Assembly: GCA_005888365.1 (NCBI GenBank)
Contig: VAWZ01000094.1
Coordinates: 5,871-40,976 of the forward strand
Source of the DNA: Actinomycetota bacterium
Lineage (GTDB): Bacteria > Actinomycetota > Thermoleophilia > Gaiellales > Gaiellaceae
Reading direction: 5' to 3'
DNA length: 35,106 nt
Numbering within the stretch: position 1 is the first letter of the stretch; every line of letters begins with the position of its first letter. Made by a program: the position numbers and the translations under genes. Below are positions 25,826-35,106 of this stretch, piece after piece. Below the pieces are notes generated by a model that made no database searches, had not been told where the DNA came from, and was given only the letters and a program-made list of their open reading frames with translations.

Positions 25826-26345
25826 CGAGCTCGACCTCGGTCGAGGGCTCGAGCACGAGACGCCCGCCGGCGAGCCGGCGCACGAGCCGGAAGACGGGAT
25901 AAGCGAGCAGGACGTTCAGAAAGACAGCGGGGATCAGGGCCGTCACGAGAGCCTGGTGCGCGACGACCGTCTCACCGAGCATGTAGTGCAGGAGGACGCC
26001 GAAGAAGCCCGCGAGCACGGTGATCACGCCGGTCGCGAGCACGGGCGCGAGAGCGCGGCCGCGGCCGGTCGTCTCGCCGTAGCGTCCGGCCCAGAAGCCC
26101 GCCAGCGTGAGCACGAGCGAGGTCACTCCGAGCGTGTCGAGCGTGACGAGATCGACCACGAGCCCGCCCGCGAAGCCGAAGACGGCGCCCGCGACGGAAC
26201 CGCGCAGGAGCCCCAGCGCGACGATCACGACGAGGAGCAGATCGGGCGCGCCGCCGAAGACGAAGGTCGAGGAGACGACTCCGGCCTGGAGCAACGCAAC
26301 GACGAAGACGAGCGCGCTCGCGCGAAGTGCAGTCGTCACGGTCAT
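25818..26345 (-). CDS. mreD: Rod shape-determining protein MreD
   Basis: Multi-TM 175 aa between mreC and mrdA, overlapping both. Confidence 0.88.
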   Translation of the reverse strand: MTVTTALRASALVFVVALLQAGVVSSTFVFGGAPDLLLVVIVALGLLRGSVAGAVFGFAGGLVVDLVTLDTLGVTSLVLTLAGFWAGRYGETTGRGRALAPVLATGVITVLAGFFGVLLHYMLGETVVAHQALVTALIPAVFLNVLLAYPVFRLVRRLAGGRLVLEPSTEVELVV

Positions 26346-27289
26346 TGGCTCGGGTTTCGGCTCTTCGGGACGAGCACGAGCACTGCGTCGAGGGCGCCGA
26401 AGTCGACGTACGGATCGATCTGCACCTGCTGGAAGAAGTCGGTGTCCGACTGGCCGACGCTCGTCACCTCGCCGATGGGTATCCCCTTCGGGTAGACGGA
26501 GGTGAGGCCGTTCGTGCGCCAGCCGGCGGTGACGATGCTGTCCCCCTCCTTGATGACGTCCTCCTTGCGGACTCGGTCGAGGACGAGCGTCTCACGCGTC
26601 CCTCGTGCGTGCCGCACGATGCCCGTCGCCCGTGTGCGGACGTCGATCGCAGAGGCGGCGGCTTCCTGGTCCGTGAGCAGCTGGATGCGCGCCGACCCCG
26701 AAGTCACACGCGTGACGAGTCCGACGAGATTGCCGTCGGAGCTGACGACAGGGTCGTCTACTCGGATCCCGCGATCCGATCCGACGTCGACGACGATCGC
26801 CTGCGTGAACGCGCCGGCCGGCCGGTCGATGACGGCCGCGGAGACGCCGTTGTAGTCGTGCGGAAAGCTCGCGCTCCCGACGTAGTGGAGCTGCTTGCGA
26901 AGAAAGCGGTTCTCCTGGAGCGCGAACTGTCTCTGGATCGCCTCCTGGCGCAGACTCGAGTTCTCTTTCCGGAGGCGCGCCGCTTCGGAGCGGGCGTGGA
27001 AGAGGCTCTCCGTCCAGTTGTAGGCGTCCCTGAACGGCTGCGCGATCCGATCGACGCCGACGGCGAACGGGCGCAGCACGGTTGCGCCCGCAGACTGGAC
27101 CCCGCTCATCGAGCCGCCTGCTTCCGACCGGAACGAAAAGGTGATGAGGACGAGCGCGAGCAGGACGAGCGAGCCCACAACCAGGCGACGCCGGAGCGGG
27201 CCGGAGCTGCGCTGGGAGAGCGACGTCGCAGGGAGGCGCCGGACGTTCACGCCCAGCGCGGCCGGACGCGCGCTGCGTTGGCGCGGCAT
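26342..27289 (-). CDS. mreC: Rod shape-determining protein MreC
   Basis: N-terminal TM, coiled coil, GAFTQAIVVDVGSDRGIRVDDPVVSSDGNLVGLVTRV. Confidence 0.93.
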   Translation of the reverse strand: MPRQRSARPAALGVNVRRLPATSLSQRSSGPLRRRLVVGSLVLLALVLITFSFRSEAGGSMSGVQSAGATVLRPFAVGVDRIAQPFRDAYNWTESLFHARSEAARLRKENSSLRQEAIQRQFALQENRFLRKQLHYVGSASFPHDYNGVSAAVIDRPAGAFTQAIVVDVGSDRGIRVDDPVVSSDGNLVGLVTRVTSGSARIQLLTDQEAAASAIDVRTRATGIVRHARGTRETLVLDRVRKEDVIKEGDSIVTAGWRTNGLTSVYPKGIPIGEVTSVGQSDTDFFQQVQIDPYVDFGALDAVLVLVPKSRNPSQ

Positions 27290-27328: not shown

Positions 27329-27419
27329 TGCGCAAGATCGGAATCCGCTAGCGCAGACTCCGATCGCGCGAAGATCCCTAAAGCGCGGCCGCAGAGCGGC
27401 CGCGGTGCTTACGATTTCA
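27329..27419 (-). repeat. Intergenic palindromic repeat element, copy B (mreB/mreC)
   Basis: About 73/91 aligned columns identical to 32863-32952; hairpin plus duplicated GCGGCCGC. Confidence 0.85.
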
Positions 27420-27435
27420 CATACGCGTCCGGCAG

Positions 27436-28506
<1,071 letters not shown>

Positions 28507-31706: not shown

Positions 31707-31820
31707 TCAGAGCAGAAGCTTGCCGACCAAATAGCCGAGTGCAAAGAATGTGCCGACGAGCGCGGCGACGAAGGCTAGCGCGAACGTCACCACTCCCAGG
31801 CGCTCGCCTACCCTCGACAC
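31707..31820 (-). CDS. Small single-TM protein (37 aa) MSRVGERLGVVTFALAFVAALVGTFFALGYLVGKLLL
   Basis: GTG start with AAGGAGGA Shine-Dalgarno; overlaps the folC 3' end; not in the supplied ORF track because of length. Confidence 0.6.
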   Translation of the reverse strand: MSRVGERLGVVTFALAFVAALVGTFFALGYLVGKLLL

Positions 31821-32869
31821 GCCGCGTCCTCCTTCTGCGCGAGGTCGCCGAGGAGGTAGAGCGACCCGGTCACGAGCACGGGCTCGCCGAGCTCGTGGGC
31901 ACGTGCGAGCGCCGCGACGGGGCTGTCGATCGCCTCGACGTGCTCGAAGTACCGACGCGCGGCGCGAGCGACGTCGGCCGCAGGCAGAGCGCGCTCCGAC
32001 GACGAGCTGGTGGCGACGAGATTGCCCCCGGCGCCTCGCAGGATGCGGAGGATCTCGTCCGCGTTCTTGTCGGAAAGGATCGAGACGACGATCGTCCAGT
32101 TCCCAGGCGGAAGCCGGTCGACGAGAAATCGCGCACCGTGGGGATTGTGAGCACCGTCCCGGATCTCTGCATCCCGGCGCTCGAAACGTCCCGGGAGCTC
32201 AACCGTCTCCGCAGCAGCGATCGCGTGGCCGACAAAGGCCTCCGCGGCCTCGCGCGCCGCGCCGATCCTCACGTCGTGCCCTGTGACGAGGTGAGCCCAT
32301 TCGTCGTCCGGGAGCACGACGACGGAGCCGTCCTGCACGACGGCGAGCTTCTCTCGCGCGATCTCCGCGCGCGTCTCACCCAGGACCTCCGTGTGCTCGA
32401 GGGCGACGTTCGTGAGCAGGACGACGCGCGTCCGAAGGACGTTCGTCGCGTCGAGGCGCCCACCGAGACCGGCCTCGACGACGGCGACGTCGACGTTCGC
32501 ATTCGCGAATGCGAGGAGCGCCGCCCCCGTGACGATCTCGAACTGCGTCGCCCGCGCGCGCTCGGCCGCGGAGCGGACCGCCTGCACAACCGCCTCGAAG
32601 TCGACCTCCTCGCCGTCGAGCCGGATCCGCTCGCTCCAGGATGCGACGTGCGGGGAGATCGTCGTCCCCACCGAGAGGCCCTCCCCGAGGAGAAGCTGCT
32701 CGATCGTGACCGCTGCCGTCGACTTCCCGTTCGTGCCGACGACGTGGATCGCGGGAAACGCGTTCTGCGGATCGCCGAGCACCGCGAGCAGCTCGTGCAT
32801 TCGCGTGAGGCCGAAACCCTCCCGTGGCCAGGGCGAGAGCGAGTCGAGCCACGAGGTACTCGTGCGCAC
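31808..32869 (-). CDS. folC: Folylpolyglutamate synthase / dihydrofolate synthase (start could be GTG 32920)
   Basis: HVVGTNGKSTAAVTIEQLL, SERIRLDGEEV, VEAGLGGRLDATNVL, DGAHNPHGARFL. Confidence 0.9.
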   Translation of the reverse strand: MRTSTSWLDSLSPWPREGFGLTRMHELLAVLGDPQNAFPAIHVVGTNGKSTAAVTIEQLLLGEGLSVGTTISPHVASWSERIRLDGEEVDFEAVVQAVRSAAERARATQFEIVTGAALLAFANANVDVAVVEAGLGGRLDATNVLRTRVVLLTNVALEHTEVLGETRAEIAREKLAVVQDGSVVVLPDDEWAHLVTGHDVRIGAAREAAEAFVGHAIAAAETVELPGRFERRDAEIRDGAHNPHGARFLVDRLPPGNWTIVVSILSDKNADEILRILRGAGGNLVATSSSSERALPAADVARAARRYFEHVEAIDSPVAALARAHELGEPVLVTGSLYLLGDLAQKEDAACRG

Positions 32870-32952
32870 GACCGGAATCCGCTCGCACGGATTCCGGTCG
32901 TGCGAAGACCCCTGAATCACGGCCGCGGAGCGGCCGCGGAGCCCGCGTTTCA
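32863..32952 (-). repeat. Intergenic palindromic repeat element, copy A (valS/folC)
   Basis: Perfect 16-bp inverted repeat CGCACGACCGGAATCC (32865-32880) / GGATTCCGGTCGTGCG (32889-32904), then duplicated GGCCGCGGAGC. Confidence 0.9.
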
Positions 32953-35106
32953 AGAGCCGTCCAGCGCGGCGAGCTCGCGGCGGTAGCGCTCGAGCTTCTC
33001 GCGCTCGGCCTCCACCACCTCGGGCGGTGCCTTCGAGACGAAGCGTTCGTTCGCGAGCATCCCCTCTGCGCGCGCGACCTCCTTCCGAAGCCGCCCGATC
33101 TCTGCGTCCCGGTTGTGGTCGACGCGGGCGCGTTCCGGATGAACGACGGCCGCGAAGATCCTGCGCTCCTCGTCCGAGCCGAGCTCGACCTCCACCCCGC
33201 TCCGACGGAAGATCTGCGCTGCCTCCTGGACGCGGTCGAGCGCGTCGGCGTCGCCCGCGAAGCGGGCGTCCGGCTCCGGCCACGGCGAGACGATCAGCCG
33301 CGCATCGCGACGGGGCAGCATCGACCAGATCTCTTCCGTGACGTGAGACATGATCGGATGCAGGAGCACCAGGAGACGCTCGAGGGCACTCACTGCGGTC
33401 GCTATCGCATCGCGATCGCGATCGTTGAGACGAGGCTTGATCGACTCGGCGTACCAGTCGCAGAAGTCGTCGAACGTGAGGTGGTAGAGGACGGCCGTAG
33501 AGGCCGCGAAGTCGAAGCGGCGCCAGCACGCCTCGACCTCCGCCCGGGCGGCCTCGATGCGGGCGAGGATCCAGCGCTCCTCGAGGTCGCGCGGCTTCGT
33601 CTCGGGAGACACGTCGCCGGCGTTCTGCAGAACGAGCCGTGACACGTTCCAGAGCTTGATGGCGAGGCTGCGGCCTTCCTCGATCGCCTTGAACGAGAAG
33701 CGGACGTCCTGGGTCGAGGAGATCTTGAGCAGGCCGTAGCGGGTTGCGTCGGCGCCGTACTGTTCGATTGCCTGAATGGGGTCGATTCCCGTGCCCAGGC
33801 TCTTCGACATGCGTCGACCGTTCTCGGCGAGCACCGTCGAGTGCACGATCACGTCCGCGAAGGGGATGTCGCCGCGGAGCTCGAGGCCGGCCCAGATCAT
33901 CCGGTTCACCCAGAGGCGGATGATCTCCCGTGCGGTCGAGTCCACGTTTCCCGGGTAGTAGCGGGCGAGCTCGGGAGTCTCGTCCGGCCAGCCGAGCGTG
34001 GCGAAAGGCCAGAGCGCGGACGAGAACCAGGTGTCGAGGACGTCGGGGTCGCGCTCGAGCTCGGTCGAGCCGCACTCGGCGCACGCGCCCGGCTCATCGG
34101 CCTGGACGGTCACGTGGCCGTCCGGGCAGTACCAGATCGGAAGCTGATGCCCCCACCAGAGCTGGCGCGAGACGTTCCAGTCCGGGATCTCCTCGAGCGA
34201 GCGGAGCGCGAACTCGTGCTGGGACGAAGGGTGGAAGCGGACACGCCGCTCACGGAGTGCCAGAAGCGCAGGCTTGCGCGGCTCCTCCATCGCGCACCAC
34301 CACTGGAGCGAGATGAGCGGCTCGATGCGCGAGTGGCACCGCTCACACGTCCCGACCGAGTGCCTGTACGGCTCGGTCCGCTCGAGCCGGCCGCGCTCGC
34401 GCAACCATTCGAGCACGCGCTCGTCGGCCTCTATCTGCGTGAGACCAGCAAGCTCCCCCGCTGCCTCGTTCATCCGGCCGTCGGCTGCGAGGACGGTCAA
34501 CGCGGGAAGATCGTGAGCCCGGCCGATCTCGAAGTCGACCGGATCGTGGCCGGGCGTCACCTTGAGCGCCCCGGTGCCGAACTCGGGGTCGACGCGCTCG
34601 TCGGCGATGACCGGGACGCGCCGCTCGACGAACGGCACGACGACCCCGCGGCCCACGAAGTCGCGATAGCGATCGTCCCCGGGATGCACGGCGACCGCGA
34701 CGTCCGCGAGCATCGTCGCCGGGCGCACGGTCGCCACCGTGAGATGGCCCGAGCCGTCGACGAACGGGTACTGCGCGTAGACGAGGGTGTCGTCCATCTC
34801 CTCGTGGACGACCTCGAGGTCCGAGATCGCGGACTCGTGGAACGGACACCAGTTCACGATCCTGTTGGCGCGGTAGATCCAGCCACGTTCCCAGAGGTGG
34901 ACGAAGAAGCGCATGACCGCGCGGACGTAGTCGTCGTCCATCGTGAACCGCTCGCGTGAGTAGTCGAGCGAGGCTCCGAGACGGCGGTACTGGCCCATGA
35001 TCGTGCGGCCCGTCTTCTCGAGCCACTCCCAGGTTCGCTCGACGAACGCCTCGCGGCCGATGTCCTGCCGCGTCTTCCCTTCCTTCGCGAGCTCCTTCTC
35101 GACCAC
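32950..35106 (-). CDS. valS: Valyl-tRNA synthetase (5' end outside window)
   Basis: DWNVSRQLWWGHQLPIWYC, NGRRMSKSLGTGIDP, C-terminal coiled-coil arm; followed by folC. Confidence 0.93.
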   Translation of the reverse strand: MVEKELAKEGKTRQDIGREAFVERTWEWLEKTGRTIMGQYRRLGASLDYSRERFTMDDDYVRAVMRFFVHLWERGWIYRANRIVNWCPFHESAISDLEVVHEEMDDTLVYAQYPFVDGSGHLTVATVRPATMLADVAVAVHPGDDRYRDFVGRGVVVPFVERRVPVIADERVDPEFGTGALKVTPGHDPVDFEIGRAHDLPALTVLAADGRMNEAAGELAGLTQIEADERVLEWLRERGRLERTEPYRHSVGTCERCHSRIEPLISLQWWCAMEEPRKPALLALRERRVRFHPSSQHEFALRSLEEIPDWNVSRQLWWGHQLPIWYCPDGHVTVQADEPGACAECGSTELERDPDVLDTWFSSALWPFATLGWPDETPELARYYPGNVDSTAREIIRLWVNRMIWAGLELRGDIPFADVIVHSTVLAENGRRMSKSLGTGIDPIQAIEQYGADATRYGLLKISSTQDVRFSFKAIEEGRSLAIKLWNVSRLVLQNAGDVSPETKPRDLEERWILARIEAARAEVEACWRRFDFAASTAVLYHLTFDDFCDWYAESIKPRLNDRDRDAIATAVSALERLLVLLHPIMSHVTEEIWSMLPRRDARLIVSPWPEPDARFAGDADALDRVQEAAQIFRRSGVEVELGSDEERRIFAAVVHPERARVDHNRDAEIGRLRKEVARAEGMLANERFVSKAPPEVVEAEREKLERYRRELAALDGS

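Follow-up and report, generated by a model that had tools for sequence, protein, structure and literature searches.

Copies A and B, two intergenic palindromes in a 35,106-nt stretch of the actinobacterial assembly GCA_005888365.1 (contig VAWZ01000094.1; the stretch and the genome are hereafter called the window and the host), belong to a REP-like family of palindromic repeats that is non-autonomous and specific to the genus; taken together with the mechanism proposed for it below, we consider this reading probable. This REP-like family, here termed family 1, is new; it behaves as REPs do and has neither the sequence tag nor the linked RAYT gene by which membership among REPs is judged. With very slightly less confidence, we regard its second hairpin as a module shared by a set of elements, in which the partner of family 1 would be a MIRU-type coupler (family 2) that sits on RTGA starts across the taxonomic family, keeps its reading frame by compensating indels and hides start codons in copy-specific hairpins.

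A preliminary description of the two loci gave the correct positions and the correct minus-strand sequences for both copies (Table 1). Its hand count of about 73 identical positions in 91 came down to 70 identical columns in 90 upon alignment with MAFFT, and the differences are indeed mostly transitions (14, against 6 transversions). When folded, each copy outperformed 200 of 200 dinucleotide shuffles, with z-scores of -6.1 for copy A and -4.9 for copy B, and copy A used as a BLAST query against the host genome retrieved copy B at E = 1.3e-17. Neither copy is accompanied by a T-tract terminator. At the gathering level, no Rfam family covers the element, in agreement with the earlier view that it could not be assigned to a named family; a match to mir-205 at a permissive Rfam threshold (E = 0.11) was attributed to chance. 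At the valS end of copy A, a TTG overlapping the valS stop codon (TTGA, 32950-32953) opens a reading frame that crosses the element and continues into folC. At its right end, alignment points to a GTG that is likely the folC start and would replace the ATG of sister genomes.

Table 1. Coordinates of the palindromic copies and neighbouring genes in the window, and loci of the second repeat family
Feature	Position	Strand	Remarks
Copy A, family 1	32863..32952	-	between valS and folC; opens with the TGA stop of valS; 100.1 bits (model R1)
Hairpin 1, copy A	32920..32938	-	CGCGGCCGC TCC GCGGCCG; fold and helix 1 covariation
Hairpin 2, copy A	32865..32904	-	CGCACGACCGGAATCCG TGCGAG CGGATTCCGGTCGTGCG; 31.2 bits, E 8e-9 against model R2
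Copy B, family 1	27329..27419	-	between mreB and mreC; 113.3 bits (model R1)
Hairpin 1, copy B	27384..27404	-	fold and covariation
Hairpin 2, copy B	27331..27370	-	fold and covariation; 32.5 bits, E 3.3e-9 against model R2
valS (valine--tRNA ligase)	32950..35106	-	NCBIfam NF004349, 802.6 bits, cut-off 704; 5' end beyond the window
folC	31808..32869	-	NCBIfam TIGR01499, 239.9 bits, cut-off 162.65
mreB	27436..28491	-	NCBIfam TIGR00904, 503 bits
mreC	26342..27289	-	NCBIfam TIGR00219, 114.6 bits, cut-off 92.75
GTG, likely folC start	32867..32869	-	in the 3' arm of copy A hairpin 2; placed by aligning folC starts from G008 and G009
Family-2 loci	L134, L137, L139, L140:4024-4222, L142-L151 (G000), L275-L314		139-198 nt

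The preliminary description had proposed a search for further copies by BLASTN or a covariance model. In the host genome (2.66 Mb), copy A as a query returned 59 BLAST pieces; the lowest E-value for another locus was 1e-23. A covariance model (R1), built from 19 copies, reached still lower E-values against other loci and produced 124 raw hits, of which about 57 are family-1 copies once the members of the second family, and hits to the reverse strand of palindromes already counted, are subtracted. Neither a lack of further copies nor a lack of covariation, the two outcomes named beforehand as speaking against the element, was encountered, and the proposal of a dispersed, structured, REP/MITE-like element is borne out by the many genomic copies and their covarying stems. 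Family-1 hits were present in 10 of 10 other genomes of the genus, from 1 to at least 64 per genome. Among genomes of other genera, 4 of 50 had hits, at most six each: three of these genomes fall in the same family (one by a single marginal match) and one in the same order (again by a single marginal match). Within the named genome collection, every exact match to the hairpin-2 pattern came from an uncultured actinobacterial MAG. The layout of family 1 comprises about 90 nt, with hairpin 1, a linker containing AGGGAT.TTC, and hairpin 2. Matches to hairpin 2 only also occur, and at six loci (L121, L136, L152, L125, L133 and L035) two to four family-1 copies or hairpin-2 units form tandem clusters, spaced by about 52-110 nt.

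Statistics of the structure were computed from 73 copies of three genomes. In these copies, 94.8% of the cells in the two hairpins are paired, and 17 of the 25 pairs have changed on both sides (6 of 8 in helix 1 and 11 of 17 in hairpin 2). The covariation score of 0.198 was reached by 0 of 500 shuffles (0.121 +/- 0.004), and slid controls scored 0.045-0.055. The compensatory change from C-G to T-A that had been noticed between copies A and B recurs family-wide, the column pair 74/108 being CG in 45 copies, UA in 19 and GC in 3. Since template switching can also give correlated changes in palindromes, covariation alone is no proof of selection. On the strand as first quoted, G.T cells outnumber A.C cells by 135 to 25, and by 60 to 25 when two wobble-rich columns are left out (p = 2e-4). 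Thus, the quoted strand is the structured one, as had been supposed, either in an RNA or in single-stranded DNA. Close to the base of hairpin 2, one C.T step and one G.T step are retained.

Where does the element sit with respect to genes? Using gene calls from a home-made codon model seeded with identified genes, we found 20 copies in tandem-sense and 15 in tandem-antisense contexts relative to the element strand, 19 between convergent genes, 1 between divergent genes and 2 at contig ends. The common orientation relative to transcription that had been pointed out holds for copies A and B; it is no rule of the family, in which contexts are mixed. The suggestion of an operon-internal processing site with a fixed orientation is likewise not supported, because one copy in three is flanked by convergent genes and the antisense copies read against tandem genes. 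The constant feature of family 1 is contact with a stop codon, not orientation: (i) for 27 of 28 tandem copies, the distance from the element to a stop codon is at most 12 nt, whereas only 8 of 28 have the start codon on the other side equally close; (ii) the median distance in tandem copies is 5 nt to the stop versus 38.5 nt to the start (Wilcoxon p = 3e-4); and (iii) most of the convergent copies (n = 19) touch both stop codons. In a few operon copies, a frame begins at one RTGA and extends to the following one, a likeness to MIRUs (see below) that is suggestive only.

Sister genomes indicate how the copies reached these sites. At the valS/folC junction, the two genes are adjacent and the element is absent in G007, G008, G009 and G010. 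At the mreB/mreC junction, G008 carries a decayed copy (32.3 bits, stem lost) and six other genomes of the genus carry none; several further host sites are empty in G007. Family-1 copies at unrelated loci are 75-89% identical, which together with the empty orthologous sites shows that the family has spread by copying. The spread is not recent, as no sign of recent movement appears at that level of identity. The host and G008 share one filled site (L128 in G000, L179 in G008), where both sides of the hairpin-2 stem have changed; this shared site fits functional retention as well as an old insertion. Other repeats occupy the mreB/mreC junction elsewhere, GAGAGACCTGACCCCGCTCGTTCC about six times in G007 (L112) and GGGTCAGACCCC in G004 (L115); possibly, these are cognate repeats of the Y1 transposases in the two genomes.

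Family 1 shares much with the REPs of the GTAG/CGTC super-families (PMC3733652, PMC8266576). Both are short imperfect palindromes with stem mispairs, present in tens of intergenic copies, and both lie next to gene 3' ends, avoid divergent promoters and occur in clusters or tandem units. Published convergent REPs lie within 20 bp of both 3' ends, and unidirectional ones adjoin the 3' end of the upstream gene at a varying distance from the downstream gene (PMC3733652). In REPs of these super-families, a GTAG or CGTC tetranucleotide marks one hairpin end, and GTAG REPs flank a RAYT gene. In contrast to a REP, family 1 combines two dissimilar hairpins in one 90-nt unit and, in contrast to the GTAG/CGTC REPs, it has no GTAG/CGTC tag and no linked RAYT. 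MITEs derived from IS200/IS605 resemble it in having two terminal-type hairpins on one strand and no ORF of their own, and differ in that a shallow look found no IS200/IS605 copy with the same ends as family 1. The host has one Y1_Tnp gene of RAYT size, and relatives have more Y1 genes. This RAYT-like gene (L094:4409-4996, G000:C38) stands alone between a nuoF-like gene and an apparent formate dehydrogenase gene. As a candidate for an autonomous partner between inverted copies, we considered a 0.7-kb segment enclosed by two copies on C15 (L135) and rejected it, as by eye it resembles a glutamine-amidotransferase-type gene and not a transposase.

The presence of the RAYT-sized Y1_Tnp gene, the imperfect hairpin with its conserved mispairs and the REP-like distribution at gene ends could mean that a RAYT (TnpA-REP) transposase of the same genomes mobilises family 1, which would then be a true REP. 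However, GTAG adjoins hairpin 2 in only 8 of 73 copies and CGTC adjoins hairpin 1 in only 5 of 73. No recognisable repeats flank the host RAYT gene and no cognate hairpins lie alongside it. Moreover, twelve stretches around Y1 genes of G000, G004, G005, G007, G008, G010 and G036, all incomplete genomes, yielded no clear copy within about 5 kb of the genes, only matches of at most 17 bits, and the number of Y1 genes is unrelated to the family-1 copy number (Spearman -0.01, across incomplete MAGs). RAYT mobilisation of family 1 is possible but unsupported, and we judge the reading as a true REP unlikely. Slightly less credit still is due to the idea that the element is primarily a functional RNA 3'-end structure (a terminator or exonuclease barrier) under selection, whose dispersal is incidental. 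It would account for the contact with stop codons, for the near absence of divergent contexts (1 of 57), for the preserved stems and for the orthologous copy with a compensatory change in G008. Yet a T-tract is missing at copies A and B, and both lie inside operons whose downstream gene needs expression (valS/folC and mreB/mreC). Furthermore, the unpaired linker is conserved across unrelated loci and is not needed by a terminator, and the element is missing from most orthologous junctions, the G008 copy at mreB/mreC having lost its stem. Finally, a GC-rich genome holds many short inverted repeats, among which two GC-rich stem-loops could resemble each other by chance; BLAST E-values down to 1e-23, the conserved unpaired segments and the genus-wide occurrence refute this explanation.

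What is the mechanism of dispersal? For the preferred reading, a non-autonomous REP-like family, we propose that a trans-acting protein would bind single-stranded DNA, recognising the folded, G.T-tolerant strand with the conserved C.T and G.T steps at the foot of hairpin 2, and would copy the element into gene 3' ends. The element would be tolerated there because the genes stay intact and because its ends often supply the stop codon (TGA on the left and CTA, that is TAG, on the right). The transcribed hairpins probably serve either to form a bidirectional 3' end of the mRNA or to stabilise it, and in co-directional gene pairs some copies may keep translation continuous between the genes.

Hairpin 2 is not confined to family 1. 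Fifteen of the host hits to R1 belong to a separate repeat of about 195 nt (family 2) with hairpin 2 inside, and hairpin 2 of copies A and B matches the nested unit of family 2 (model R2). A short form of family 2 (about 139-148 nt, model R2) occurs in the host, in most genomes of the genus and in other genera of the family, and family 2 is also present in two genomes of another family. In a class-wide draw, we found it in 22 of 199 genomes, a single one of which falls outside the family. The long form is the short form with an exact insert of 54 nt (18 codons) that corresponds to the hairpin-2 unit. Thus, hairpin 2 moves as a unit. At the junction that holds L145 in the host, G006 has a family-2 copy (L181) with different internal hairpins, which shows an exchange of internal modules in family 2.

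An RTGA opens family 2, and the RTGA at the other end doubles as the start of the gene downstream. An ORF of 62-68 aa runs from RTGA to RTGA in each of the 15 long copies, and among 40 further copies 37 possess an element-length ORF that terminates at the start of the following gene, 36 of them in the exact pattern. Altogether, an ORF overlapping the downstream start was found in 52 of the 55 copies examined (L288 included). Three of the 40 depart from the exact pattern, namely two copies without such an ORF and L288, which is shifted by a few bases; in addition, the ORF of L298 begins with an ATG outside RTGA, and L312 has a truncated start. The ORFs use two frames, and in long copies with an early shift a 2-nt deletion close to the end compensates for it, so that the open frame is kept and not the peptide. 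Sister genomes have, for example, the undivided RTGA junction (L188, L192 and L197 versus L151) or the undivided start (L206 and L207 versus L150). The last hairpin of family 2 (TCAT...ATGA) carries the downstream start codon in its 3' arm and is copy-specific: over 53 tails, own arms pair at a mean of 6.8, a value favoured by choosing the best-pairing arms in each copy, versus 2.8 +/- 0.2 for exchanged arms. Two host copies, L139 and L150, lie between divergent genes with an apparent -10 box just upstream, at apparently leaderless starts; L206 and L207 are the empty sites for L150. Such positions make the start codon, and not only a stop/start overlap, the target of family 2.

This arrangement recalls mycobacterial MIRUs, which are inserted at start codons and have an internal ORF coupled at -4 nt (Supply et al. 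1997, per PMC12548453). Family 2 resembles them in start-codon insertion and in a predicted ORF coupled with -4 nt spacing, a likeness of layout, and differs in having hairpins of its own and the start-codon hairpin. Family 1, with 19 copies between convergent genes and 15 in antisense, is not a MIRU. In a limited literature search, we found no report of MIRU-like repeats outside mycobacteria.

Family 1 adds a REP-like family with neither a tag nor a visible transposase, in a phylum missing from the phyla quoted from the survey of GTAG/CGTC REPs, among which no Actinobacteria appear (PMC3733652). Its filled and empty sister sites, together with the exact anchoring at stop codons, provide a system for asking how repeats choose gene ends. 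The shared hairpin also brings to light family 2, whose insertion at start codons leaves operons unbroken, and the frame-keeping indels and start-codon hairpins of that repeat make the notion of mobile translational couplers directly testable outside mycobacteria. If the reading of family 2 as such a coupler is true, MIRU-type coupling repeats would be no mycobacterial peculiarity.
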